Positions 6,617-21,224 of a stretch of 64,000 nt of DNA are shown piece after piece. This DNA is from Pararhizobium capsulatum DSM 1112 (lineage in GTDB: Bacteria > Pseudomonadota > Alphaproteobacteria > Rhizobiales > Rhizobiaceae): positions 641,001 through 705,000 of the forward strand of contig NZ_JAUSVF010000001.1 in the NCBI RefSeq assembly GCF_030814475.1, given 5' to 3'. The notes below the pieces were generated by a model. That model did not search any database, was not told the DNA's origin, and saw only the letters and a list, made by a program, of their open reading frames with translations. Numbering within the stretch: position 1 is the stretch's first letter; the number at the start of each line of letters is the position of its first letter. Made by a program: the position numbers and the translations under genes.

Positions 6617-7315
6617 TCAGAATGCCTCGGCGTGGGCTTCGGCCAAAGCACGCCGAAGATCTTCGATGGGCGTGTTGTCCGCCATCTTCTTTCCTTCGAG
6701 TTCCTTCGGCATTTTCCAGCCTGGATCGATCCCCTCCATATTGGGTAATTCGTGAGCGATGCCTTTGTGACAATCGATGCACGTCGCCTTTCCCGAAAGG
6801 AGATATCGCGTATGGATTTCGGCGGCTCTCTGGGTTTGCTTCTGAAGATCCATCGCGACTGAAGAATGGCAGTTGCGGCATTCCAGACTATCGTTGGCCT
6901 TCATCCGGGCCCATTCGTGCTGGGCCAGCTCGAGGCGATGTTCGAGGAATTTGGATCGCGTATTGATCGTGCCGAACATCTTGCCCCAGACTTCCTTCGA
7001 CGCCTGCATCTTGCGGGCGATCTTATCGGTCCACTGGTGCGGCACATGACAGTCGGGACAGCTCGCGCGCACGCCTGAGCGGTTGGAAAAATGAATGGTA
7101 CGCGTCAGTTCCTGATAAACATTGTCATGCATCTCATGGCAGGACGTGCAGAATTTCTCGGTATTGGTCAATTCGAGCGCCGTATTGAACGCGCCCCAGA
7201 ACATCACACCGCCGACGAAACCGCCCAGCGTCAGGAAGCCAAGACCGAGGCTTCCGGCTGGCGTGATCATGATCGCCCAGGCCCAGGCGACAAGTTTCAT
7301 GATCCATCCGATCAT
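6617..7315 (-). CDS. napC: NapC/NirT-type membrane tetraheme cytochrome c
   Basis: 232 residues. A single N-terminal membrane anchor ([20 protein letters not shown]) is followed by four CXXCH haem motifs: CTSCH, CPDCH, CRNCH and CIDCH. It takes electrons from the quinol pool and passes them to NapB and NapA in the periplasm. It is the last gene of the napEFDABC order, four bases after napB, and is itself intact. Since napA upstream is interrupted by a 3.4-kb insertion transcribed in the opposite direction, its expression from the nap promoter may be reduced. Confidence 0.96.
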
Positions 7316-7319
7316 GGCA

Positions 7320-7823
7320 TTACTCGCTTCCCGCCGGCTTGAATCCCAATTCGCTCATGTCCTTGAAGATATTGCGTACCAGTGGTTGGGTATTTGCCTG
7401 CGGAACGTGACAGGCCGTGCAGAAGTAGCGCCTCGGTGAAACATCGGCGATCATCTGTCCGTCCCGGGTCATGTAGTGCGTCACGCTGATCATCGGGGCA
7501 CCGGAATCCTGCGTGAACTCACGCTTGTGACAGGTAAGACACCGGTTGGCGTTGACGGAAAGCTCGTAGCCCTCGATCGAGTGCGGGATAATGGGCGGCT
7601 GGTCGGGATAGGCACGCATCCTGCGCTGGTCATCAATGACCCATTTTGGCAAAATGGCCGCAGCGCCGGTCTCCATGGACGGCGTCGGACCCTCGAGCTG
7701 CGGCACCGTCTGCGACACAACCTGACCAATCGCAGTCGTCGCGGCAAACATCAGTATCCCAACGACGAGTACTATCCATTCAGGTCGCCTCAAATGGCGA
7801 CGGGGAGAATCTTGACCGCGCAT
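7320..7823 (-). CDS. napB: Periplasmic nitrate reductase diheme cytochrome c subunit
   Basis: 167 residues from the ATG at 7823, overlapping the 3' end of napA by 34 bases, as is common in this operon. An N-terminal hydrophobic export signal ([18 protein letters not shown]) is followed by two haem sites, CLTCH and CTACH, and the conserved region [20 protein letters not shown]. It transfers electrons from NapC to NapA. The gene is complete, so only its partner NapA is broken. Confidence 0.95.
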
Positions 7824-9526
7824 TTTTTGAAATCCGTCTGTTTGGAGATGGGATCGGTGGCGTCGAGAGTAACCTTGTTGATCAATTGACTGGCGTCGAA
7901 CCATGGAACGAAGATGACACCGGACGGCATGCGATTGCGGCCACGAATGTCTATGCGGGAACGGATCTCGCCACGACGCGAGATGATGCGGACTTCCGCC
8001 CCTTGGTTGATACCCCGCTTGCGCGCGTCATCGGCATTCATGAAGCAGCGTGCACCGGGAAAAGCCTTGTAAAGTTCAGGCACCCGCATGGTCATAGATC
8101 CGGAATGCCAGTGTTCCAGCACCCGCCCCGTGACCAGCCAGAAATCAAACTCCTCATCGGGCGATTCTGCCGGCGGCTCGTAAGGTACTGCGAGGATGAT
8201 CGCCTTGCCGTCCTTCTGCCCGTAGAACTTCACGCCTTCGCCAGCCTTCACATAGGGGTCGTACCCCTCACGGTAGCGCCACCGTGTTTCCTGGCCGTTC
8301 ACAACGGGCCAACGCCGGCCACGGACCTCGTGATAGAGGTCGTAGGGCGCGAGATCGTGACCGTGTCCCCGCCCGAACGATGCATATTCCTCGAACCGGC
8401 CTTTCTGAACGTAGAACCCGAATGCCTGGGCCTCGCTGTTGTCGTATTCGCCATTGATCTCGTTGAGCGGAAACCGATCGACCTCGCCGTTGCGAAACAG
8501 CACATCGAAAAGGGTCTTGCCCCGATAGGTCGGATTGGCGTCGAGCATCTCCGCCGGCCAAACCTCGTCCGTGGTGAAGCGCTTCGAAAATTCCATCATC
8601 TGCCAGAGGTCAGAGCGCGCTTCGCCAGGAGCCTGGACAAGCTGATGCCAGACGTGGGTCCTGCGTTCTGCGTTGCCGTAAGCACCTTCCTTTTCCACCC
8701 ACATGGCCGCAGGAAGGATGAGATCGGCACTCATCGCAGTGATTGTCGGATAGGCGTCGGAGACGACGATAAAGTTTTCGGGATTGCGATATCCCTGATA
8801 GGTCTCGTTGCTGGTGTTGGGTGCTGCCTGGACGTTGTTGTTCACCTGAACCCAATAGAAATTGAGCTTGCCGTCCTTCAGCATCCGGTCCTGCTGGACT
8901 GCATGATAGCCGGGTTTCTCGGGAATGATGCCATGGGGAATGCGCCAGATTTCCTCCGCATGTTTGCGATGCTCGGGATTGGTTACAACCATGTCTGCCG
9001 GCAGGCGGTGTGCGAACGTTCCCACCTCGCGTGCCGTGCCGCAGGCAGAAGGCTGCCCCGTCAGCGAGAACGGACTGTTGCCCGGCTCGGAGATTTTTCC
9101 CGTCAGCAGATGCAGGTTGTAGACCATCTGGTTTGCCCAGACGCCGCGGACATGCTGGTTGAACCCCATGGTCCAGAGTGACATGACCTTGCGATCGGGA
9201 TCTGCGTAAAGCTCCGCCAATTGTTCAAGGAACTCCGGATCGACACCGGTCATCTCGACCGTTTTCTCCAGTGTGTATTCAGCGACGAACTCCTTGAAGG
9301 CCTCGAAATCCATCGGCTCGGTCTTACCCGGATCGGCCGAATTGGCAGCCTTCATTTCCACCGGGTTGTCCGGTCGCAGGCCGTAACCGATGTCAGTCGC
9401 GCCGCGGGCGAATTTGGTATGTTGCTCGACAAAGGCCGTGTTCACACGTCCCGTCTGGATGATGTGGTTGGCGATGTAGTTGAGGATTGCAAGATCGGTT
9501 CCCGGCTTGAAGATGATCGGAATGTC
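7790..9526 (-). pseudogene. napA: napA, 3' part (catalytic subunit C-terminal two thirds), split by RIT element
   Basis: The 578 C-terminal residues of periplasmic nitrate reductase. They begin at the codon for Asp in [18 protein letters not shown] and include the molybdopterin-dinucleotide binding regions ([47 protein letters not shown]). The 5' part lies at 12941-13711, beyond a 3.4-kb recombinase element. Both halves are free of frameshifts and join exactly codon to codon (…SMDLA | DIPIIF…), giving a normal-length protein of about 835 residues. The gene is therefore interrupted but not otherwise decayed. This fragment has no start of its own. Confidence 0.95.
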
Positions 9527-9528
9527 AT

Positions 9529-9554
9529 GTGATATGTTCGCCAGAACATATCAC
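9529..9554. repeat. Perfect palindrome at the left end of the RIT element
   Basis: Arms GTGATATGTTC and GAACATATCAC (11 bp each) around GCCA. It lies between napA and the left terminal inverted repeat and has no counterpart at the right end. It could be part of an asymmetric recombination site or a leftover of an earlier event. Confidence 0.85.
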
Positions 9555-9556
9555 CT

Positions 9557-9584
9557 GTTATGTTGCGGCCGGATTTATGTTGCG
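9557..9584 (+). repeat. RIT terminal inverted repeat, left
   Basis: 28 bp beginning GTTATGTTGCGGCC; identical to the reverse complement of 12913-12940. It contains two copies of the core ATGTTGCG, and a related CGCAACATAA tract recurs at about 9631-9640 inside the element. Confidence 0.95.
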
Positions 9585-9682
9585 CAAGCCTCTCAGTTGC
9601 TAGGGCGCTTGGGCGTCGTGGGGTTCTTGACGCAACATAATTCAAGGGGTGGGTAGCAAGCCTTTTCCAATGGAGGTTTGCT

Positions 9683-10909
9683 ATGGATCTGACGACTGAT
9701 ACCGACCATCCGGCCGGCTGCTACCATGATGACGCGCCGTTTGCCGAAGAGCGGGACCGTTACCTTCACCACTGTGCGGAATGCGGGGCGACTGCCGCTT
9801 CGCTGACGATAAAGCGCAACGAGCTGTTGTGGATTGCCACGCGTCTCGGCCCGGATGTTTCTTCGAAGCACATCGACATCGAGGCACTCCGACGGATTGC
9901 TATTGAGAGGCAACAAGCCCACGGAGCAGTCACAGCAGCGCGAAGAGTTGTCGATATCGGACGACCTTGGCTTCGATTTCTCGGCTGGTGGCGTGAACCG
10001 AGTGCCGGATTTGAGTATCAGAGCCAACTCGACGAGTATGTGACATGGATGCGCGATGAGCGCGGCTTCACACCATCGACACTCGAGCAATGGACCCGTG
10101 TGATCGGAAGGTTCCTGCGCTGGTGTGACGAGACAAATCGGCATCTTGGCGATCTTCAGGCCGGCGACATCGACGCTTATTTCGTTACCCAGGCAACGGG
10201 ACGATGGTCCCGCGTGTCGGTCGCCAACACTGCTTCGGCTCTGCGCGGATTTCTACGCTACGCCGGAAAGCGGGGAATGTGCGAAGACAGTCTGGCCGGA
10301 TCGATTTGCCGTCCCCGGCTCTACCAACAGGAGTCTCTGCCGTACGCCCCGGACTGGTCAGATGTGCAGCGCATGTTGGCCGATGCCGAGACCGACAAGC
10401 CGCGGGACATCCGCGATCGTGCAATCCTGCTGCTGCTTGCGGTCTATGGAATGCGTAGCGGCGAGGTCGTTGCATTGCGCCTCGATCAGATCGACTGGTC
10501 CGGTCGGACGCTCAGGCTTTTCCGTCTGAAGCGCCGCCAGCCACAGATCTATCCGCTCGTTTCGTCTGTTGCTGAGGCGCTCGCCCGCTACATCGACACG
10601 GTACGGCCGCCGTCATCGTGCCCGGAAGTCTTCCTCTGCATGCAAGCGCCCCGTCGGTCGTTGAAGGCAGGCAGCATCTATGACGTCGCCAACCGCAGAT
10701 TTGTCGCGCTTGGAATCGAAGCGGCCCATCGCGGAGGGCATGCCCTGCGCCATGCCTGCGCCTCTCGGCTTCTCGCCGAAGGTCTATCGATAAAGGAGAT
10801 CGGGGACCACTTGGGGCACCGTAGCGCGACGGCAACCAGTATCTACGCCAAGGTTAACATGAAAGCCCTTCGCGAGGTTGGTGCATTCGACCTGGGAGCG
10901 CTGCAATGA
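9683..10909 (+). CDS. RIT tyrosine recombinase A
   Basis: 408 residues. An N-terminal region containing two Cys pairs precedes a core-binding SAM-like domain (about residues 115-215) and a C-terminal phage-integrase catalytic domain. Catalytic signatures are visible: Arg in YGMRSGEV, His-X-X-Arg in HALRHACASRL, His in GHRSATATS, and the nucleophilic Tyr in SIYAKV. It is the first of three overlapping recombinase genes. Its start is preceded by GGAGG in CCAATGGAGGTTTGCT, eight bases from the ATG. It probably acts together with the two downstream proteins on the element ends. All catalytic positions look intact. Confidence 0.92.
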   Translation: MDLTTDTDHPAGCYHDDAPFAEERDRYLHHCAECGATAASLTIKRNELLWIATRLGPDVSSKHIDIEALRRIAIERQQAHGAVTAARRVVDIGRPWLRFLGWWREPSAGFEYQSQLDEYVTWMRDERGFTPSTLEQWTRVIGRFLRWCDETNRHLGDLQAGDIDAYFVTQATGRWSRVSVANTASALRGFLRYAGKRGMCEDSLAGSICRPRLYQQESLPYAPDWSDVQRMLADAETDKPRDIRDRAILLLLAVYGMRSGEVVALRLDQIDWSGRTLRLFRLKRRQPQIYPLVSSVAEALARYIDTVRPPSSCPEVFLCMQAPRRSLKAGSIYDVANRRFVALGIEAAHRGGHALRHACASRLLAEGLSIKEIGDHLGHRSATATSIYAKVNMKALREVGAFDLGALQ

Positions 10910-11844
10910 TGCTGACCGATGTTGTCGACGCGTATCTGGCCAAGCAGCGGTCATTGGGCATGCGTTTCGAGTCCGCCGAGGTGCTGCTGCGCAGGTTCTG
11001 CCGCGTAATGGGCAATCTCGGGATCAGCGAGATTGCCCCAGAGGCCGTAGCCGCGTTTCTCCAAGGCAGCGGCTCGCTCAGCGCCACCTGGATGCTGCGT
11101 TACAGGGTTTTGAGCGGTCTTTACCGCTTCGCCGTCAGCCGCGGCTACGCAGCGTCCTCGCCAATGCCGACAATGTTCCCGAAGTTGCCGCCGCAACAAA
11201 CGCCATATGTCTATTCGACGGAAGAGCTACGCCGGCTGCTGGACGCGACCTCGATCCTGAAGCTTGGGCACAGTCCTCAGGTGCCGGCAATGTATCGCAC
11301 CCTTCTCCTGCTGCTTTACGGTAGCGGTATGCGCATCGGCGAGGTGCTTCGCTTGGTCTTGCAAGACGTGGACCTGACCGAGCAGATCATCACTGTCCGC
11401 GACACGAAGTTCTTCAAAACGCGTCTCGTGCCGATCGGACCAAAGCTCAACTACGAGCTGGCTGCGCATATCGAACGCCGGCGTCTTCTCCCTTTGCCGC
11501 GTGGAGAAGAATCACCGTTGTTCACCACGCGCGATGGCCGGCCGTGGCACTATGTGCGGGTTATTTCCTGGTTCCAGCATGTCCGTCGAGCCGCCGGAAT
11601 CGATTGCCCGTTCGGCGAGCTTCGGCCGCCACGACTGCACGATATTCGTCACACCGCCGCCGTGCACCGGGTGGTCGCCTGGTATCGCTCCGGTCAAGAC
11701 GTGCAACGGTTGCTTCCGCAACTCACAACCTACCTTGGCCACATCGATATACGTTCAACGCAGCGCTATTTGCACATGACGCCCGATCTTCTCGATGCAG
11801 CCAGCCAGCGCTTTGCGCAATATGCAATGGGGGCCGGACCATGA
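10906..11844 (+). CDS. RIT tyrosine recombinase B
   Basis: 312 residues, starting in an ATGA overlap with the first recombinase. It has an N-terminal core-binding domain and a C-terminal integrase domain with Arg in GSGMRIGEV, Lys in TKFFKTRLVPIG, His-X-X-Arg in HDIRHTAAVH, His in YLGHIDIRS and Tyr in TQRYLHMT. The catalytic set is complete. Together with its neighbours it forms a translationally coupled trio, which is the defining trait of RIT elements. Confidence 0.92.
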   Translation: MMLTDVVDAYLAKQRSLGMRFESAEVLLRRFCRVMGNLGISEIAPEAVAAFLQGSGSLSATWMLRYRVLSGLYRFAVSRGYAASSPMPTMFPKLPPQQTPYVYSTEELRRLLDATSILKLGHSPQVPAMYRTLLLLLYGSGMRIGEVLRLVLQDVDLTEQIITVRDTKFFKTRLVPIGPKLNYELAAHIERRRLLPLPRGEESPLFTTRDGRPWHYVRVISWFQHVRRAAGIDCPFGELRPPRLHDIRHTAAVHRVVAWYRSGQDVQRLLPQLTTYLGHIDIRSTQRYLHMTPDLLDAASQRFAQYAMGAGP

Positions 11845-12836
11845 AGGATGAGAACCCCCTTGGTCCGTGGATCCGTCGCTTCCTGTTGGAGCATCTGGTC
11901 GCTGAACGCAATCTATCCCGCAACACCCAAGCCAGCTACCGCGACACGCTTAAACTACTGTTGCCGTTTGCAAGTAAGCAAGGAGGTTGCGCCATCGAAC
12001 GTATGACAGTGGAAGAGCTGACGCCGGCGGTCGTCCGCAAATTCCTGGCCCATCTAGAACGCGATCGCCAATGCAGCGAAGCAACCCGTAACCAACGGCT
12101 TGCGACCATTCATTCATTGGCACGCTACATCGGCATGCGTTCGCCGGTCCATCTGGCCTGGTGTTCCGAGATAAGGGCGATCCCATTCAAGAAAACGGCA
12201 AAAGCCTCGATCGGCTATCTCGAAAAGGCCGAGATGGATGCGCTTCTCGGTCAACCCGACAGGCGTACGAACCTTGGAGTGCGCGACCATGCCCTGCTGT
12301 TATTCCTATACAACAGTGGTGCGCGCGCTGATGAGGCAGCAAAATTGACGATCGGCAATCTTCAGCTGGGCACGTCTCCGTCAGTGCGGCTTCATGGTAA
12401 GGGAAACAAGATCCGGATCTGCCCATTGTGGCCAGCGACTGCGGTATCGCTGGCTCGCCTCGTCACCGATCGGGATGGGAGCGATGCAGTCTTCCTGGGG
12501 CGGAGGAAGGATCCTTTGACACGGTTCGGAATACACCGCATCGTCACGCAATATGCCGCTGCGGCGAGCAAAATGGTGCCGGCCCTGGCCACAAAGCGCG
12601 TCAGCCCCCATACGATTAGGCATACGACAGCAGTCCACCTCCTGCGCGCGGGCGTCGACATCAACACAATCCGCGCCTGGTTGGGCCACGTGTCGTTGGA
12701 TACCACCAATATCTACGCCGAGGTGGATCTGGAGATGAAGGCAAAAGCATTGGCCAAAGTTGATATCAGCGGCCTGAAGGAGCCCCCAAGGCAACAAACC
12801 CTGCCGTCACTAATGGCATTCCTGAAAGCATTGTAG
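11841..12836 (+). CDS. RIT tyrosine recombinase C
   Basis: 331 residues from the ATG at 11841, overlapping the TGA of the second recombinase. The same frame is open further upstream, but the ATGA coupling and the typical N-terminus (FLLEHLVAERNLSRNTQASY) fix the start. Catalytic residues: Arg in NSGARADE, Lys in HGKGNKIRICPLW, His-X-X-Arg in HTIRHTTAVHLL, His in WLGHVSLDT and Tyr in NIYAEVD. It resembles classical XerD-like integrases more closely than its partners do. Intact. Confidence 0.92.
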   Translation: MKDENPLGPWIRRFLLEHLVAERNLSRNTQASYRDTLKLLLPFASKQGGCAIERMTVEELTPAVVRKFLAHLERDRQCSEATRNQRLATIHSLARYIGMRSPVHLAWCSEIRAIPFKKTAKASIGYLEKAEMDALLGQPDRRTNLGVRDHALLLFLYNSGARADEAAKLTIGNLQLGTSPSVRLHGKGNKIRICPLWPATAVSLARLVTDRDGSDAVFLGRRKDPLTRFGIHRIVTQYAAAASKMVPALATKRVSPHTIRHTTAVHLLRAGVDINTIRAWLGHVSLDTTNIYAEVDLEMKAKALAKVDISGLKEPPRQQTLPSLMAFLKAL

Positions 12837-12869
12837 TCACCACCATCCCGTTCTTCTTATGTGGCGCTA

Positions 12870-12900
12870 GGGCCAAGGAAACATCGATGATCCTTGGCCC
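12870..12900. repeat. Hairpin near the right end of the RIT element
   Basis: Perfect 10-bp arms (GGGCCAAGGA / TCCTTGGCCC) with an 11-nt loop, 12 bp inside the right inverted repeat. It could end the recombinase transcript before it reaches napA antisense sequence, or be part of the recombination site. There is no clear T run. Confidence 0.7.
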
Positions 12901-12912
12901 ATCCCCCGCAGT

Positions 12913-12940
12913 CGCAACATAAATCCGGCCGCAACATAAC
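12913..12940 (-). repeat. RIT terminal inverted repeat, right
   Basis: 28 bp ending …GGCCGCAACATAAC, the exact reverse complement of 9557-9584. It abuts the napA codons directly at 12941. Confidence 0.95.
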
Positions 12941-13711
12941 GGCCAGATCCATACTGCGATGGGTGAAGGTGGACAAAACCGCGACGCGAACATGTGGCTG
13001 GCCGAGGCGGCGATCAGCAACCCGCGTCCACAGGATCGGGTGCATCTCGGCCATGTTCGATCCCCAGAGCACGAAGGCATCCGCATTCTCGAAATCGTCG
13101 TAACATCCCATCGGCTCATCCATGCCGAAAGTACGCATGAAGGCGACGGCAGCCGACGCCATGCAGTGGCGGGCGTTTGGATCGAGATTGTTCGATCGGA
13201 ATCCGGCCCGCATCAGCTTGGTTGCTGCATAGCCCTCGAAGATCGTCCACTGGCCGGAGCCGAACATGCCGACGGCTATTGGCCCTTTCTCCTTCAGCAC
13301 TTTCTTGCACTGCTGCGCCATCACATCGAAGGCTTCGTCCCAACTCACCGGCGTGAACTCGCCATCCTTGGCGTAGGCGCCGTTGCTCTTGCGTAGAAGC
13401 GGAGTCTTTAATCTGTCCTCGCCGTACATGATCTTGGAAAGGAAGTAGCCCTTGATGCAGTTCAAGCCGCGGTTTACCTCCGCCTGCATGTCGCCGTGGG
13501 TTGCTACGACCTGACCTTGCTTGACGCCGACCATCACGCCGCAACCGGTCCCGCAAAATCGGCAGGGCGCTTTCGACCATTTGATCTCCAGCGCAGTGAC
13601 GCCACCGGGCACCGGCTGTGCGGCAGCGGGAAGCGCTATGCCTGCCGTGGCGGCGGCAATGCCGGCTGCATGGGCCTTCAGGATTTCACGCCGCGTCAGT
13701 TCTCCAGTCAT
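12941..13711 (-). pseudogene. napA: napA, 5' part (Fe-S and Mo-ligand region), split by RIT element
   Basis: 257 codons from the ATG at 13711 to the RIT junction. It holds a twin-arginine signal ([16 protein letters not shown]), the [4Fe-4S] cysteines ([13 protein letters not shown] and C in GLNCIKGY) and the molybdenum-ligand Cys in [12 protein letters not shown]. The start overlaps the end of napD by 26 bases; an earlier ATG at 13738 is possible. After the junction the frame reads 28 codons into the element and stops. No mutation other than the insertion is visible. Confidence 0.95.
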
Positions 13712-13961
13712 CGTTCTGCGCCTCTCCCGTTTCGACATGTTCGAAAACCATGTTCGCGGCGATCACTCCCTCAAGAAGTGAAATGGCCGTCAGGCACTGC
13801 CCCATCACCCCGGTGCTCGTTCCCTCAATGACGATGATGATCTTCCCGTTTGCGTGAGCATGGATTTCGACATTTTCCATCTTGGCGATCTCTGCAAGAA
13901 CGTCGCCCGTCCTTGCAGGCAGCGTCGCAACGACCGCGCTTGAAATGTGATATGTCGCCAT
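13686..13961 (-). CDS. napD: Nap assembly chaperone NapD
   Basis: 91 residues. NapD binds the twin-arginine signal of NapA and is needed for its maturation. It begins with the conserved type HISSAVV followed by an alternating beta-alpha pattern ([20 protein letters not shown]), as in the ferredoxin-like fold of the family. The start at 13961 lies four bases after the napF stop, and the gene overlaps napA. Intact. Confidence 0.93.
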
Positions 13962-13965
13962 CGGC

Positions 13966-14466
13966 TCAGGCATGGACCAGCTCCAGTGCACGTGGCTTTG
14001 TCCCGATCGATCCGACAGGGCAAACCTGCAGGCATGCGCCGCAACCGCTGCAAATCTGGTCGTCGAGTTCCGGAACGAACGGGCCGCCCAGACGTGGCCG
14101 GAAACGGATAGCCTGGACAGGACAACTCTCGCCGCAGGACTGGCACGCAACATCTTGTTTCGCCAGGCAGCTATCCGCAATCGCGGCGACGTGGGGGAAG
14201 CGGAAGACAGCTTCCGGTTCGAATACAGGTTCCGGACAAGCCGTCCCGCATTCGCCGCAGAACGTACATGCACCCAACGAGAAATCAACCGACGGCAGGC
14301 CATCGACCAGAACGATTATCCCGGTGGGACAGTGTTCGGCACAGAGATTACAGCCTGTACAGGTGGAAAGGCCAAGGTCCGATGCGCCCGGTGGATAAAT
14401 TCCACCGGCGCTCCTGGTCGGGAGGCCACGGAACAAGTCACGACGTGAGATGGATTTTGTAAACAT
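13966..14466 (-). CDS. napF: Ferredoxin-type protein NapF
   Basis: 166 residues from the ATG at 14466 (MFTKSISRRDLFRG). An upstream in-frame ATG at 14547 would overlap napE and is not chosen. Cysteine motifs for several [4Fe-4S] clusters are visible: CTGCNLCAEHCP, CTFCGECGTACP, CQSCGESCP and CSGCGACLQVCP. NapF is cytoplasmic and is thought to help load the iron-sulfur cluster of NapA. Second gene of the operon. Confidence 0.94.
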   Translation of the reverse strand: MFTKSISRRDLFRGLPTRSAGGIYPPGASDLGLSTCTGCNLCAEHCPTGIIVLVDGLPSVDFSLGACTFCGECGTACPEPVFEPEAVFRFPHVAAIADSCLAKQDVACQSCGESCPVQAIRFRPRLGGPFVPELDDQICSGCGACLQVCPVGSIGTKPRALELVHA

Positions 14467-14473
14467 CGCCGCC

Positions 14474-14659
14474 TCAATGCCCGGGAGGGCCTGGCGGACC
14501 GAAAACGATCTGCCACATCCACACGGAAAACCCGTAGCCGCCGACAATGCCTACTGCAATGATTGGCCATATGCCGAATGCAAGGGCAATAAAGGTGAGA
14601 AGCTCCGCACGCCGCCGTGGATGCGCGTTGGTCAAACTATCGTGAGACGGCTCTGACAT
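14474..14659 (-). CDS. napE: NapE small membrane protein
   Basis: 61 residues from the ATG at 14659, which has GGGAG five bases upstream. The GTG at 14665 overlaps that site and is less likely. One or two hydrophobic stretches (LLTFIALAFGIWPIIAVGIVG) are followed by FSVWMWQIVFGPPGPPGH, the conserved NapE tail. First gene of the operon; molecular role not established. Confidence 0.9.
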   Translation of the reverse strand: MSEPSHDSLTNAHPRRRAELLTFIALAFGIWPIIAVGIVGGYGFSVWMWQIVFGPPGPPGH

Positions 14660-14839
14660 CAGCACTCCCTCAACTTGAAGTGTATAGTATCAAGGGCGAT
14701 GATTAAATAAAGGGCAAAGATACTACATTTTTATACTCAGGTTTTGAGGGTTCAATCGGTATGTAGCGCTATGCTATTGGCGACGTTTGACAGGGTCGCG
14801 TTTGATCATTCCCTGTTTTAGCAGGATAGTTTGTCTGCA
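14660..14839 (-). promoter_or_regulatory. Region expected to hold the nap promoter
   Basis: AT-rich stretch upstream of napE. I see an imperfect inverted repeat (TTGAAGTGT…AGTATCAA, 14675-14693), but it does not have the 14-bp FNR-box spacing, so no anaerobic regulator site is claimed. The promoter location is inferred from operon layout only. Confidence 0.35.
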
Positions 14840-15062: not shown

Positions 15063-15136
15063 ATGATACCGGAAACGCTAACCTCCGGTAATCCAGAAAT
15101 CTGGGGCGGTTCACTCGCGATCCAACTGCCCCAATT

Positions 15137-15323
15137 TTGGATATGGCATTTATCAGCAATGTTTTTGATGCCAATGGCGATGCCATCGGCACCGAAATCC
15201 GAGGCATACGACACACTCCAAATGCAATTTGCCCCCCAGACCACCGCGTTGCCTGGTGGTCGCTGGGTCGTAGCCTGGGCGTCAGGTTCAGAAGGAAACG
15301 AAGTCTATCAGAGGAAGTTTTCC
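15137..15323 (+). pseudogene. Remnant of an upstream RTX-protein module, frame-disrupted
   Basis: In one frame FISNVFDANGDAIGTEI and in another QFAPQTTALPGGRWVVAWAS followed by VYQRKF. Together they look like one copy of the ~100-residue sugar-hydrolase-like repeats found at the N-terminus of many large RTX proteins (YDANG.KIGTE … P.VTAL.DGGFVVTW … VYGQRF). The frame change between them and the adjacent IS3 remnant suggest that the original gene was longer at its 5' end. Confidence 0.6.
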
Positions 15324-18300
15324 ATGAGTACCGGAGTTGGCGAAACGATCGATGGTGATGAAGACGACAACGTTCTTAATGGAACAAGCGGCGACGATAC
15401 GATCAGCGGCTATGGTGGCAACGACACAATCAATGGCTATTGTGGCAACGATATCCTCGATGGTGGCGAGGGTGACGACACCATCGAGGGTGGAGACGGC
15501 GACGACACGATCCGCGGCGGCAGCGGCATCAACACGCTGAACGGTGGCATCGGCAATGATAAAATTTTTGGCGAGTGGTATAGCGGCAATACGATCAATG
15601 CCGGCAGCGGAGACGATATCATCACCGTCGTTGACAGTACCGATACTGTCGATGGTGGCGACGGAAATGATATTCTCCGGGTTTACTGGGCCAATCTTCA
15701 AACCTCGACCGCAACAAAAGTGGAGACACTTGAAGCGGGTTACGTCTCTGCTACCGCAGCCTTCCTGAGCGGCTTTGATACCATTCGCGGACACGCCGAC
15801 TACGCAGGCTTCGAAACGATCTATCTCCATCTCAACGGGGCGGGAGATGCCGTTCTCAACATTCAATCAGGTGTGGGTGGTGAGATCTGGGGGAGTGCAC
15901 ACAACAACGGCATCGATTTTTCCAGCGCGACCCAGGCATTCGCAATATACGCCGGCAAGGGCGATGACATCGTCAAGGCCGGCGCAGGGGACGATATCAT
16001 CTACGGGGGAGATGGCCTCGATACCCTTGTCCTGGACGGCGCGCGCACGGACTACGAGATTGTCATCGGTGACGACGGCCATGTGACAATCACAGACTTG
16101 CGCGAAGGGTCGCCCGGTGGGACGGACGAAATTTATAATGTCGAGCTGGCCCAATTCTCGGACGGGTCGGAGGGATTGGACGGGTCAATAGGTAGCAATT
16201 TCGACGACATATTGGTTGGAACGGAAGGTGACGATAGCCTGTATGGGTTTGGCGGAAACGACAGCCTGCGCGGGCTTGGCGGCGCCGATACGCTCGATGG
16301 CGGGAAAGACGACGACAAAGTTGAAGGTAGTGCTGGCGATGACGTGCTGATTGCAGGCGATGGCAATGACATCCTGATCGGCGGTTCCGGCAATGACACG
16401 TTCCGTGTTGAAGCCTCTGGCACGCCCGAAGAAGGCGACAAGGTTCTTATCAAGGACATCGGCGGCACCGACACAATCGACGCATCCAAAGCCCGCTCCG
16501 GCGTGACGCTTGACCTGACGACGGGCGGTGTTGTGGATGGGCGTAGCGTTGAATTCGAAAGTGGCGCCTTCAGCGGCGAGGCAAAGCCGCTCGATCTCAT
16601 GTTCGTGCAGGATCTCAGTGGTTCCTATGGGGATGATATCTCTACCGTCAGGACATTCCTGCCGGATTTGCTGAACCTGGTCCTGGCCAGCAACACGAAT
16701 GCCCATTTTGGATTGAGCTCCTTCGTAGACAAGCCGGTATATCCCTTTGGTAGCAGTGGCGATTACGTGTATCGCACGGATCTCGCGCTCACCAATGATG
16801 CCGCGGATTTTCTCGATACATATAGAAATCTCGCCATCCTCGGTGGGAACGATACCGAGGAAAGCCAGCTGGAAGCCCTCATGCAGGTCGCTCTGCGGAC
16901 CGTCGAGGTGGGGTGGCGCCCGGGCGCGAACAAAGTTGCGATCCTGTTCACTGATGCTCCGCCCCACATCGCTGGTGACGGCGCCGCCGGCGGCATCACC
17001 GTTGCCAACAACGGCGATGCGGTTCTGAACGGTACGATCCCCGGTACGGGCGAGGACTATCCCGCCATTGCCCAGGTCGCGGCCGCACTTCTTGCGGCCG
17101 GTATCATTCCCGTGTTCGCGGTCACCGAAGGCGTAGCATCCGCCTATGAGGAATTCGTTGAAACGCTGGGCGCCGGCGCCGTGCTGGATTTGAGCTCCGA
17201 TAGCGCCAACGCCCTGGCCGTCATCAACTCGGCACTCGGCTTCCTTGAAGGCGATGGTTATATCGAAAATGCGGTTGGTTCCGATTTTGCGGATACGTTG
17301 AAGGGCAACCGGCTCGACAACCGGCTTGAAGGCGGCGCGGGTGCCGACACGCTCGACGGTGACGCCGGCAACGATACGCTGGTCGGCGGGGCTGGGAATG
17401 ACACGCTGAAAGGTGGCCTTGGCTCCGACAAGGCCGTCTATTCAGGCGATATCGTCGACTACCTCGTGACGGTAAATTCCAATGGCAGCAAGACCGTCAA
17501 AGACTTGCGCGGGGGTAGCCCTGACGGAACCGATACGCTTACGGGCATCGAGATACTGCAGTTCAACGACGGAACGCTTGGCAGCAGTTCCGCACCGGAG
17601 AACGTGACACTTTCGGGTCACGTTCTCACGCCGAAAGCGGTAGCAGGCACAGTCGTCGGCACGCTTTCTGCCCATGATGTTGATGGTGATGCGATAAGTT
17701 TCAGTCTCACATCCGACAGTTCGGCACTGTTTGAGATTGTCGGTAATCAGCTGCGTCTCAAGACCAACGCCAATCTCGATCCGCTGGCAACGCCCGTGCT
17801 GACGATTATCATCACTGCGACGGATATCGCTGGTCTCACCGCCTCAAAGGCCTTCGAGATCAATATCAACCAGCCACCTGAGGGATTGGCGCTTTCCAAG
17901 GCAACCGTTGCCGAGAATGTCGCTGTCGGTACCGAGGTCGGCGCGCTGTCTGCGACCGATCCGGAAGGCGGAGCGCTGAGCTACAGCCTGACCGACAATG
18001 CCGGTGGCCTGTTCAAGCTTTCCGGCAACAAGCTGGTGACGGCCAAGGTGATCAACTTCGAAACGACACCGTCCGACACGGTGGCGGTTCAGGTATCGGA
18101 TGCCGCCGGCAACAAGATATCGAAGACCTTCACGATCAATGTGACGAACGTCAATGAAGCGCCGACCGGGCTTGGTCTTTCCAAGGCAACCGTTGCCGAG
18201 AATGTCGCTGTCGGTACCGAGGTCGGCGCGCTGTCTGCGACCGATCCGGAAGGCGGAGCGCTGAGCTACAGCCTGACCGACAATGCCGGTGGCCTGTTCA

Positions 18301-21224
18301 AGCTTTCCGGCAACAAGCTGGTGACGGCCAAGGTGATCAACTTCGAAACGACACCGTCCGACACGGTGGCGGTTCAGGTATCGGATGCCGCCGGCAACAA
18401 GATATCGAAGACCTTCACGATCAATGTGACGAACGTCAATGAAGCGCCGACGGGGCTTGGTCTTTCCAAGGCAACCGTTGCCGAGAATGTCGCTGTCGGT
18501 ACCGAGGTCGGCGCGCTGTCTGCGACCGATCCGGAAGGCGGAGCGCTGAGCTACAGCCTGACCGACAGTGCCGGTGGCCTGTTCAAGCTTTCCGGCAACA
18601 AGCTGGTGACGGCCAAGGCGATCAACTTCGAAACGACACCGTCCGACACGGTGGCGGTTCAGGTATCGGATGCCGCCGGCAACAAGATATCGAAGACCTT
18701 CACGATCAATGTGACGAACGCCAATGAAGCGCCGACGGGGCTTGGTCTTTCCAAGGCAACCGTTGCCGAGAATGTCGCTGTCGGTACCGAGGTCGGCGCG
18801 CTGTCTGCGACCGATCCGGAAGGCGGAGCGCTGAGCTACAGCCTGACCGACAGTGCCGGTGGCCTGTTCAAGCTTTCCGGCAACAAGCTGGTGACGGCCA
18901 AGGCGATCAACTTCGAAACGACACCGTCCGACACGGTGACCGTTCAGGTATCGGATGCCGCCGGCAACAAGATATCGAAGACCTTCACGATCAATGTGAC
19001 GAACGTCAATGAAGCGCCGACCGGGCTTGGTCTTTCCAAGGCAACCGTTGCCGAGAATGTCGCTGTCGGTACCGAGGTCGGCGCGCTGTCTGCGACCGAT
19101 CCGGAAGGCGGAGCGCTGAGCTACAGCCTGACCGACAATGCCGGTGGCCTGTTCAAGCTTTCCGGCAACAAGCTGGTGACGGCCAAGGTGATCAACTTCG
19201 AAACGACACCGTCCGACACGGTGGCGGTTCAGGTATCGGATGCCGCCGGCAACAAGATATCGAAGACCTTCACGATCAATGTGACGAACGTCAATGAAGC
19301 GCCGACGGGGCTTGGTCTTTCCAAGGCAACCGTTGCCGAGAATGTCGCTGTCGGTACCGAGGTCGGCGCGCTGTCTGCGACCGATCCGGAAGGCGGAGCG
19401 CTGAGCTACAGCCTGACCGACAGTGCCGGTGGCCTGTTCAAGCTTTCCGGCAACAAGCTGGTGACGGCCAAGGCGATCAACTTCGAAACGACACCGTCCG
19501 ACACGGTGGCGGTTCAGGTATCGGATGCCGCCGGCAACAAGATATCGAAGACCTTCACGATCAATGTGACGAACGCCAATGAAGCGCCGACGGGGCTTGG
19601 TCTTTCCAAGGCAACCGTTGCCGAGAATGTCGCTGTCGGTACCGAGGTCGGCGCGCTGTCTGCGACCGATCCGGAAGGCGGAGCGCTGAGCTACAGCCTG
19701 ACCGACAGTGCCGGTGGCCTGTTCAAGCTTTCCGGCAACAAGCTGGTGACGGCCAAGGCGATCAACTTCGAAACGACACCGTCCGACACGGTGACCGTTC
19801 AGGTATCGGATGCCGCCGGCAACAAGATATCGAAGACCTTCACGATCAATGTGACGAACGTCAATGAAGCGCCGACCGGGCTTGGTCTTTCCAAGGCAAC
19901 CGTTGCCGAGAATGTCGCTGTCGGTACCGAGGTCGGCGCGCTGTCTGCGACCGATCCGGAAGGCGGAGCGCTGAGCTACAGCCTGACCGACAATGCCGGT
20001 GGCCTGTTCAAGCTTTCCGGCAACAAGCTGGTGACGGCCAAGGTGATCAACTTCGAAACGACACCGTCCGACACGGTGGCGGTTCAGGTATCGGATGCCG
20101 CCGGCAACAAGATATCGAAGACCTTCACGATCAATGTGACGAACGTCAATGAAGCGCCGACGGGGCTTGGTCTTTCCAAGGCAACCGTTGCCGAGAATGT
20201 CGCTGTCGGTACCGAGGTCGGCGCGCTGTCTGCGACCGATCCGGAAGGCGGAGCGCTGAGCTACAGCCTGACCGACAGTGCCGGTGGCCTGTTCAAGCTT
20301 TCCGGCAACAAGCTGGTGACGGCCAAGGCGATCAACTTCGAAACGACACCGTCCGACACGGTGACCGTTCAGGTATCGGATGCCGCCGGCAACAAGATAT
20401 CGAAGACCTTCACGATCAATGTGACGAACCTTGATGAAGGCCCGGCAAACATTAAGCTTTCCCACACAAACGTTGATGAGAATGTCAATATTGGCACCAC
20501 GGTCGGCACGTTCTCGACTGCGGAACCGGAAAGCAGGACGCAGGTATACAGCCTGACCGACGATGCCGGCGGCCTGTTCACGCTTTTGGGCAACAAGCTG
20601 GTGACGGCGAATTCGGTCAACTACGAAACCTTGCAAAGCGACACCATCACCGTGCAAGTGGTCGATAAAAATGGAGAGAAGACCACCAAGACGTTCACGA
20701 TCACTGTGAACGATCTGCTTGAGACCGTAAACGGCACATTCAGGAGCGAGACGCTCAAGGGTGGGATCGGCAAGGATAAAATTGTCGCAGGAGCCGGCAA
20801 TGATACGTTGCAAGGCGGCGATGGCAATGACCAATTGTTTGGCGATATCGGCAACGATACGCTGTACGGTGGTAAAGGGGCGGATCATCTGACTGGCGGC
20901 GTCGGCGCCGACATATTCGTCTTCAAGGCTCTGTCCGATACGATGGTCTCGGCAACGAGCCGCGATACCGTCCTCGACTTCAATGCCGGGCAGGGTGACC
21001 GCATCGACATCTCTGCGTTTGACGCGAATACTCAACTATCCGGGGACCAAGCCTTTTCTTTCATCGGAACCAAAGCCTTCGCGGGGAAAGCCGGAGAACT
21101 CCGTTACGAGAAAACGACCTCGGACACCTATATCTATGGCGACGTAAACGGTGACAAAAAGGCGGATTTCGCAATCCACCTGGACGATGCTGTTACGCTC
21201 GATAAGGGGTATTTTTTGCTTTGA
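15324..21224 (+). CDS. Giant RTX adhesin with VWA-like domain and cadherin-like repeats
   Basis: 1966 residues from the ATG at 15324, which has AGAGGAAG six bases upstream. The frame is open back to 15063, but that part is disrupted remnant. Domains: glycine/aspartate RTX nonapeptides (about 10-110 and 290-360); a von Willebrand/integrin-like domain (about 420-650) with a MIDAS-type DLSGS near 429 and ILFTDAPPH; more RTX repeats (650-700); a cadherin-like block (760-1800) with nine near-identical 95-residue units; a last RTX set; and a serralysin-like C-terminal region (VLDFNAGQGDRIDIS … IYGDVNGDKKADFAI) expected to carry the type I secretion signal. There is no N-terminal signal peptide, as usual for this route. 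No type I secretion genes are nearby. Likely a calcium-stabilised surface or secreted adhesin. Confidence 0.9.
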   Translation: MSTGVGETIDGDEDDNVLNGTSGDDTISGYGGNDTINGYCGNDILDGGEGDDTIEGGDGDDTIRGGSGINTLNGGIGNDKIFGEWYSGNTINAGSGDDIITVVDSTDTVDGGDGNDILRVYWANLQTSTATKVETLEAGYVSATAAFLSGFDTIRGHADYAGFETIYLHLNGAGDAVLNIQSGVGGEIWGSAHNNGIDFSSATQAFAIYAGKGDDIVKAGAGDDIIYGGDGLDTLVLDGARTDYEIVIGDDGHVTITDLREGSPGGTDEIYNVELAQFSDGSEGLDGSIGSNFDDILVGTEGDDSLYGFGGNDSLRGLGGADTLDGGKDDDKVEGSAGDDVLIAGDGNDILIGGSGNDTFRVEASGTPEEGDKVLIKDIGGTDTIDASKARSGVTLDLTTGGVVDGRSVEFESGAFSGEAKPLDLMFVQDLSGSYGDDISTVRTFLPDLLNLVLASNTNAHFGLSSFVDKPVYPFGSSGDYVYRTDLALTNDAADFLDTYRNLAILGGNDTEESQLEALMQVALRTVEVGWRPGANKVAILFTDAPPHIAGDGAAGGITVANNGDAVLNGTIPGTGEDYPAIAQVAAALLAAGIIPVFAVTEGVASAYEEFVETLGAGAVLDLSSDSANALAVINSALGFLEGDGYIENAVGSDFADTLKGNRLDNRLEGGAGADTLDGDAGNDTLVGGAGNDTLKGGLGSDKAVYSGDIVDYLVTVNSNGSKTVKDLRGGSPDGTDTLTGIEILQFNDGTLGSSSAPENVTLSGHVLTPKAVAGTVVGTLSAHDVDGDAISFSLTSDSSALFEIVGNQLRLKTNANLDPLATPVLTIIITATDIAGLTASKAFEININQPPEGLALSKATVAENVAVGTEVGALSATDPEGGALSYSLTDNAGGLFKLSGNKLVTAKVINFETTPSDTVAVQVSDAAGNKISKTFTINVTNVNEAPTGLGLSKATVAENVAVGTEVGALSATDPEGGALSYSLTDNAGGLFKLSGNKLVTAKVINFETTPSDTVAVQVSDAAGNKISKTFTINVTNVNEAPTGLGLSKATVAENVAVGTEVGALSATDPEGGALSYSLTDSAGGLFKLSGNKLVTAKAINFETTPSDTVAVQVSDAAGNKISKTFTINVTNANEAPTGLGLSKATVAENVAVGTEVGALSATDPEGGALSYSLTDSAGGLFKLSGNKLVTAKAINFETTPSDTVTVQVSDAAGNKISKTFTINVTNVNEAPTGLGLSKATVAENVAVGTEVGALSATDPEGGALSYSLTDNAGGLFKLSGNKLVTAKVINFETTPSDTVAVQVSDAAGNKISKTFTINVTNVNEAPTGLGLSKATVAENVAVGTEVGALSATDPEGGALSYSLTDSAGGLFKLSGNKLVTAKAINFETTPSDTVAVQVSDAAGNKISKTFTINVTNANEAPTGLGLSKATVAENVAVGTEVGALSATDPEGGALSYSLTDSAGGLFKLSGNKLVTAKAINFETTPSDTVTVQVSDAAGNKISKTFTINVTNVNEAPTGLGLSKATVAENVAVGTEVGALSATDPEGGALSYSLTDNAGGLFKLSGNKLVTAKVINFETTPSDTVAVQVSDAAGNKISKTFTINVTNVNEAPTGLGLSKATVAENVAVGTEVGALSATDPEGGALSYSLTDSAGGLFKLSGNKLVTAKAINFETTPSDTVTVQVSDAAGNKISKTFTINVTNLDEGPANIKLSHTNVDENVNIGTTVGTFSTAEPESRTQVYSLTDDAGGLFTLLGNKLVTANSVNYETLQSDTITVQVVDKNGEKTTKTFTITVNDLLETVNGTFRSETLKGGIGKDKIVAGAGNDTLQGGDGNDQLFGDIGNDTLYGGKGADHLTGGVGADIFVFKALSDTMVSATSRDTVLDFNAGQGDRIDISAFDANTQLSGDQAFSFIGTKAFAGKAGELRYEKTTSDTYIYGDVNGDKKADFAIHLDDAVTLDKGYFLL
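17892..20456 (+). repeat. Nine tandem 285-bp repeats (95 residues each) in the RTX gene
   Basis: Units start at 17892, 18177, 18462, 18747, 19032, 19317, 19602, 19887 and 20172. They differ at only a few diagnostic sites (AAT/AGT in D-N/S-AGG, V/A in AK-V/A-INF, VAV/VTV, NVNEAP/NANEAP, ACCGGG/ACGGGG). Units 2-4 and 5-7 carry the same variants in the same order, so an 855-bp three-unit block has been duplicated. A diverged tenth unit follows to about 20730 and a diverged one precedes. Confidence 0.97.

Follow-up and report, generated by a model that had tools for sequence, protein, structure and literature searches.

In the alphaproteobacterium Pararhizobium capsulatum DSM 1112, the chromosomal copy of napA, a gene of periplasmic nitrate reduction, is split by a RIT element, i.e., a transposable element carrying a trio of overlapping tyrosine-recombinase genes. 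The stretch analyzed, referred to as the window, comprises 64,000 nucleotides (positions 641,001 to 705,000 of contig NZ_JAUSVF010000001.1, assembly GCF_030814475.1), and all coordinates below are window positions unless another contig is named. Most probably, the element entered this gene by site-specific recombination of the tyrosine-recombinase type, inactivating that copy, and two other napA genes remain in the genome. For nitrate respiration this is an ordinary finding, a transposable element having landed in one of the three napA copies. For RITs, reading the napA junctions alongside identical RIT copies from other sites yields exact predictions of how the circle joint, the overlap and the orientation rule should look.

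The RIT element and the divided napA gene

The components of the locus are as follows:

12941..13738, - strand: N-terminal part of napA (266 codons), upstream flank U; open reading frame (ORF) list, profile match
7790..9526, - strand: C-terminal part of napA (578 codons + stop), downstream flank D; ORF list, profile match
9527..9556, no strand: palindrome P with flanking bases, stem 9529-9539 / 9544-9554, between napA and left repeat
9557..9584, + strand: terminal inverted repeat, ritA side; repeat comparison
9683..10909, + strand: ritA-like tyrosine recombinase, 408 aa; ORF, Phage_integrase domain, catalytic motifs
10906..11844, + strand: ritB-like tyrosine recombinase, 312 aa, overlaps ritA by 4 bases; ORF, Phage_integrase domain, motifs
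11841..12836, + strand: ritC-like tyrosine recombinase, 331 aa, overlaps ritB by 4 bases; ORF, Phage_integrase domain, motifs
12913..12940, - strand: terminal inverted repeat, ritC side; repeat comparison

Removal of 9527-12940 leaves a single stop-free napA frame of 844 residues with the junction HRSMDLA|DIPIIF, and the two matches to the NAPA profile TIGR01706 (profile positions 2-254 at 12941-13738 and 255-830 at 7790-9526) abut with no gap. An earlier, sequence-only reading of the window had described a RIT splitting napA exactly between codons and leaving undamaged halves that join in frame at DLA|DIPIIF. The split and the undamaged halves, which give 844 residues without a stop, were found as described, while the exact codon boundary is one of two equivalent readings, i.e., base 12940 can serve as the G of either side. 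The insertion shows no signs of decay, and the empty site can be reconstructed on paper. The same reading had proposed a comparison with napA of relatives: the gene is present in 12 of 26 genomes of the genus in 15 copies (E <= 1e-30), 14 of which are uninterrupted at this place and keep HRSMDLAD contiguous. Misassembly across a repeat is unlikely at the napA site because the element is single-copy in the genome and lies on a 4.27-Mb contig.

The identity of the element as a RIT and the retention of its catalytic residues, both asserted earlier, are borne out. The element (9527-12940) is 3384 bp long from repeat to repeat and 3414 bp including P, and displays an overlapping trio of recombinases (each with the motifs R, HxxRH, LGH and Y), repeats of the ~28-34-bp class, a length near 3.5 kb and a palindrome at one end. 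The RITs described in passages of PMC3414803 and PMC2864759 likewise have a 4-base-overlapping recombinase trio, ~3.4-3.5 kb of sequence and a 28-bp repeat with a palindrome; they reside in IS66 tnpA or other genes (radC), whereas the window element resides in napA. The RIT passages of Van Houdt et al. 2012 (PMC3414803) describe a 28-9 bp inverted repeat with an overlapping palindrome, contain no proof of mobility and leave open why three recombinases are needed; those on the C. metallidurans CH34 genome (PMC2864759) place RITs in radC and in an IS66 tnpA, and a passage of Smyshlyaev 2021 (PMC8138268) ascribes two CB domains to RitA.

The trio is separated from the repeats by only 98 and 76 bases, and the other element frames of at least 80 aa overlap the rit genes. 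The ORF list of the element contains no fourth conserved gene of the SE / GInt type (no family search was made on the remaining frames), a scan of the element gave no sigma-70-like promoter site, and of two terminator-like matches, where 2.8 are expected by chance, one is P. A third copy of the CGCAACATAA motif, found at 9631-9643 inside the left end and inverted relative to the repeat, is possibly a recombinase binding site. Of the seven related loci whose DNA was compared, that of Ensifer sp. LC163 is closest (92.1% identical). The window RIT was not found in the other 25 of the 26 genus genomes at E <= 1e-100, one of which (G033) encodes a distant RitC relative (44%), and a class-wide search for close RitC relatives at E 1e-90 gave matches in 2 genomes among 385, including that of the window itself.

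Relative to six homologues, the window napA shows dN/dS (the ratio of nonsynonymous to synonymous divergence) of 0.03-0.06 at a dS of at least 0.64 (0.02-0.06 in pairs without the window copy), where the closest napA by DNA (G014, 89%) was left out of the comparison. As far as dN/dS can tell, there is no sign of relaxed selection. The age of the insertion is not readable from these six homologues because dS is 0.64 or more, which bears on the view that the intact halves reflect youth only, i.e., that this is a plain recent insertion with recombinases that are now inactive. Neither half of napA is disabled, the element is single-copy and its two 28-bp repeats are 100% identical to each other, all as expected for such an event; the motifs of all three recombinases are nevertheless intact and the youth itself is not legible at this divergence, and we consider this explanation rather unlikely.

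Clean joins at related sites and the choice of target

The properties of the napA site were compared with those of related trios from plasmids and genomes, which constitute part of the listed matches and of which 37 were taken as intact. Left out were copies that are ritA-only or broken (L028, L036, L037, one copy each in L043 and L050, L052) and distant ones with unexamined ends (L025, L026, L046, L056-L058); the 37 trios are not all independent, i.e., they include six Salipiger copies and several with common flanks. Terminal repeats were called in 34 of them. In a strict palindrome test, P was found at one end in 23 of these 34 trios, as compared to 12 of 3000 random window stretches; L034 was excluded from this count (its match is a run of N), and L031 was counted, having a weaker palindrome at its other end. 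In L030, L042, L048 and L084 P falls below the strict cut and is visible by eye.

When the flanks of P-bearing RIT sites were joined by rule, an open, recognizable gene was obtained at 15 of 19 sites, and additionally at L084. The 15 clean joins restore napA, IS21 (2) and IS66 (4) genes, IS110 genes (4, two representing the same target), a Mutator/IS256-type transposase, IstB, HU and a recombinase. Profiles support the joins of L027, L039, L035, L041, L047, L048, L039b, L050b, L059 and L063, and those of L042, L044, L060 and L061 rest on similarity to profile-supported ones. Because clean rejoining is seen in transposase, HU and other genes too, it does not point to a function in napA. Two of these sites illustrate the range of genes entered: in Mesorhizobium sp. 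AR02 (L050) the RIT lies inside a recombinase gene 48% identical to the window RitB, at the HxxRH motif, and in Paraburkholderia phymatum pBPHY02 (L048) it lies in a gene for an HU-like DNA-binding protein, whose joined flanks give a full Pfam match.

The 14-base napA site TATGGATCTGGCCG matches the IS21 target of a related RIT, TATGGATATAGCCG, at 12 positions. With a 14-bp matrix built from five IS21 targets, the napA site takes rank 5 among the 121,146 positions of the window after removal of the element, where the matrix length was picked after the match had been seen and the scan covered the window only. The rank falls to 151 at 18 bp, 211 at 24 bp and 197 with ten downstream bases, and matrices from IS66 targets do not favor the napA site (ranks 1913 to 17,225). 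With these reservations, the napA insertion was probably an off-target hit on an istA-like stretch.

Palindrome P, its orientation and a candidate route of movement

A 30-bp near-perfect palindrome, P, overlooked in the earlier reading, separates napA from the left repeat. No second copy is found in the genome at up to three mismatches, and as DNA P folds far better than shuffled sequences (z -7.5). Three 8-bp spacers at the junctions, with coordinates counted by position from the sequence, are of interest for the argument:

12939..12946, no strand: spacer x8, junction U-repeat, CTGGCCGT on coding strand, contains target hexamer TGGCCG; spacer comparison
9525..9532, no strand: outer spacer y8, junction P-D, TCACATGA on coding strand; spacer comparison
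9551..9558, no strand: inner spacer in8, between P and ritA-side repeat, TCACCTGT; spacer comparison

The hexamers of the window element are CACATG (outer), CACCTG (inner) and TGGCCG (target).

In three target families P is found on the same side of the target at 15 of 15 sites (IS21 6, IS66 5, IS110 4), and the orientation of the element at these sites varies, 9 of them having P on the ritA side and 6 on the ritC side. The sites are L027, L039, L029, L030, L032 and L033 (IS21 istA), L035, L041, L042, L044 and L084 (IS66) and L059, L060, L061 and L063 (IS110). The P side was read by eye, L032 shows the P-side flank only, and repeated flanks, i.e., L062 (= L059), the second copy of L066 (= L061) and L083 (= L039), were not counted. 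A constant target side would also be seen if P were an older remnant belonging to the target, beside which the RIT inserted later. This explanation is very hard to sustain given what happens to P when the element turns around. Salipiger profundus JLT2016 has six RIT copies with 3824-base bodies without a difference, and in L059/L062 and L060 one and the same IS110 target is occupied on two plasmids by the element in flipped orientation; P remains on the same target side, and its ten-base loop is reverse-complemented, reading ATCACCTCTC in one and GAGAGGTGAT in the other. In Mesorhizobium amorphae, L041 and L084 have 100% identical bodies in different IS66 genes, with P on opposite sides of the element and reverse-complemented. 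Furthermore, the other 14 napA copies of the genus, the only empty targets examined for it, have no P at this place.

The M. amorphae hexamers stay with their repeat in both copies, CAGCGG at ritA and TGGAGG at ritC. Both flipped pairs fit a circle of the form repeat-hexamer-P-hexamer-repeat in which either core would be usable for insertion. We lean, with somewhat more confidence than doubt, toward a reading in which RITs move as a circle joined by a travelling palindrome: two inverted cores, each with its own 6-bp address, would permit either orientation and two target hexamers, and the gene entered would keep every base. As part of this reading, the two addresses in M. amorphae would correspond to two IS66 target variants. 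Mobility as such is suggested only indirectly, in that other RITs occur as identical copies at separate sites in Salipiger and in Mesorhizobium.

The length of the exchanged segment was estimated from AACATA-type RITs, where the core has the form AACATA-8 bp-TATGTT. The comparison covered 15 of 19 entries, those with a clear P and clear ends (dropped: L038 and L045, no P; L031, ambiguous; L032, cut off). In 14 of the 15 (the exception is L041), the gene-repeat junction and the inner spacer have the same base 8, as if it moved with the element, and base 8 at the P-gene junction differs from that of the inner spacer in 8 of 15. Because base 8 appears to go with the element, about 6 bp would be exchanged. 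The outer hexamer equals the inner hexamer of P in 8 of 15 and the target in 5, and in 4 it equals the inner one and not the target. The outer hexamer may thus often be carried in rather than derived from the target, or it may be corrected against the inner one. Tn916-type elements, in which a donor-derived overlap (coupling sequence) can likewise end at one end only, differ in having one recombinase plus an excisionase and no palindromic joint.

From the comparison of copies, we infer the following steps. First, the element would circularize, its terminal repeats being joined through the ~20-bp palindrome to give repeat-spacer-P-spacer-repeat. Second, this joint would carry two AACATA-8 bp-TATGTT cores in inverted arrangement, either of which could recombine with the target, such that the element may point either way with P always on the same target side. 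Third, the ~6-bp overlap alone would be exchanged, i.e., no target base would be gained or lost and the gene would rejoin in frame on paper. In the present case the target would be the 14-bp napA stretch that resembles the IS21 istA site of close relatives. Excision by the same reaction would be possible and could leave Pro-His instead of Leu-Ala. If true, this route would define a mechanism of movement for RITs and make precise restoration of napA possible in principle, and it may explain why three recombinases are retained.

A number of observations weigh against this picture. Four of the 19 joins (L029, L030, L033, L049) gave no recognized frame by the automatic rule: in L029 and L030 the rule picked the other strand, and reading by hand gives the istA motif YSRFC in both; the L033 join stops at the contig end, and L049 is without a recognized gene. 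L038, L045 and L082 have repeats and no P, L031 carries a palindrome on either side, and a proper call of the ends was not obtained for L040, L053, L054, L055, L064 and L065. In L041 the outer hexamer reads CAGTGG, which matches neither expected sequence. The bodies of L029 and L030 are 94.8% identical, and P is inverted relative to the element in one as compared to the other, such that an extra inversion is needed, which would also be expected from recombination between the two cores of one circle. In the window itself the outer and target hexamers are equal at 1 of 6 positions, i.e., strict overlap homology fails here. Finally, no empty copy of the IS110 target of L063, which would show its original hexamer, was found in the plasmid collection.

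Some of these entries are of interest in themselves. L038 and L082 carry target-upstream sequence on either side and have the appearance of recombined copies; on pTiK1_93, L082 and L083 have identical RIT bodies, and the two ends of L082 show the same istA upstream flank, with no palindrome. In L053 (Sagittula) and L064 (Rhodobacter) the RIT sits between two inverted copies of a toprim-domain gene, because of which the ends are not callable. Two further features were considered and dropped. GCCAGA, 6 bp common to the P loop and the right junction, was considered as a crossover core, and most other RITs are without such sharing. A P-like inverted repeat in the upstream flank of the target matches at 5 of 6 arm positions in the window and in L039, and at 1-3 in most others; L031, the entry with a second palindrome, also has 5 of 6.

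Circles could alternatively be made without leaving the donor site, as for SEs, in which case napA would never be restored. Table 1 of PMC10214605 lists SEs as circularizing without leaving an empty site, and passages of PMC5385486 report that GInt circles were detected in the tested bacteria, of which only three showed an empty site; such precedents, and the at least six identical copies on Salipiger plasmids, speak for copy-out movement of RITs as well. The same Table 1, however, marks RITs as not tested for empty sites, and cut-out movement combined with replication or plasmid transfer also multiplies copies. Copy-out is a possibility, if less likely than not. In the parts of PMC10214605 (2023) concerned with RITs, it is stated that, to the knowledge of its authors, RIT transposition has not been reproduced in the laboratory.

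According to the relevant passages of PMC10214605 and PMC5385486, SEs and GInts resemble RITs in having three tyrosine-recombinase-type proteins, and SEs carry 6 bp from the donor flank; they differ by a fourth conserved gene, and the string "palindrom" occurs 0 times in both main texts. The Tn554 family, as described in part in PMC10214605, likewise has several recombination proteins and 6-bp carry-over from the donor flank, and differs in its gene set, TnpA, TnpB and TnpC, a distinction drawn from its description and not from sequence. The one-sided, target-oriented palindrome and the proposed two-core joint are absent from the RIT passages of PMC3414803 and PMC2864759.

Other nap genes and the prospect of excision

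Two uninterrupted napA genes (93% identical in protein) are also present in the genome, one on contig C4 and one on C5; they have no internal stops and are each flanked by napF, D, B and C (tblastn). Because of these two clusters, periplasmic nitrate reduction need not cease upon loss of the chromosomal napA.

The sequence-only reading had further suggested that the element works as an on/off switch, i.e., that a condition such as low oxygen or nitrate triggers its excision and thereby the restoration of napA. Elements of this kind are found in heterocyst-forming cyanobacteria, where recombinase-bearing DNA inside nif genes, i.e., nitrogen-metabolism genes, is excised in a programmed manner. 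The undamaged napA halves with their dN/dS of 0.03-0.06 against six homologues and the preserved recombinase motifs would be compatible with a switch, and the two outer cores, being in direct orientation, could recombine. The insertion does not, however, interrupt the only copy of the gene, as would be expected of the nif type, and the two additional napA genes leave a switch little to act on. Nor is the insertion conserved among relatives, being present in 1 of 15 napA copies and 1 of 26 genomes of the genus; clean joins are common to the RITs tested, the overlaps do not match (TGGCCG vs CACATG, 1 of 6 equal), and the 98 and 76 spare bases leave no room for a regulator or excisionase gene of ordinary size. 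The switch claim is thus not upheld, and we regard programmed excision as highly improbable. Because the napA junction spacers differ (CTGGCCGT vs TCACATGA), excision need not restore the wild type; via the outer cores it could yield DLAD or DPHD, depending on the hexamer kept. A literature search for napA insertion or excision with a tyrosine recombinase gave no match.

The remaining nap genes of the window are:

6617..7315, - strand: napC, open; ORF, profile, stop check
7320..7904, - strand: napB, open; ORF, profile, stop check
13686..14000, - strand: napD (end of open frame); domains, stop check
13966..14547, - strand: napF-like 4Fe-4S protein, named by position and domains; domains, stop check
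14474..14665, - strand: small membrane protein, presumably napE-like; open frame

The earlier statement that the other nap genes are intact agrees with these data, i.e., the napC, B, D and F frames are without a stop, and a frame is present that we take, by resemblance, to be napE-like.

The nap clusters on C4 (108000-122000, L012) and C5 (61000-75000, L013) have napA genes with a mutual DNA identity of 97.6% and about 87% identity to the window copy. Their matched stretches are stop-free except for one stop at codon 9 of the C4 napB, which precedes the likely start at codon 28 and lies in a stretch overlapping the end of napA. In G014 (L016; genome 78% complete) napA has several small frameshifts elsewhere, perhaps sequencing errors. 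An Rfam scan of the window found one tRNA, outside the element. Elsewhere in the window, 15063-21224 (+) is a frame of 2053 residues that contains RTX calcium-binding repeats, a VWA/integrin-like domain and about nine cadherin-like repeats; its product would, by resemblance, be a large secreted adhesin-like protein.

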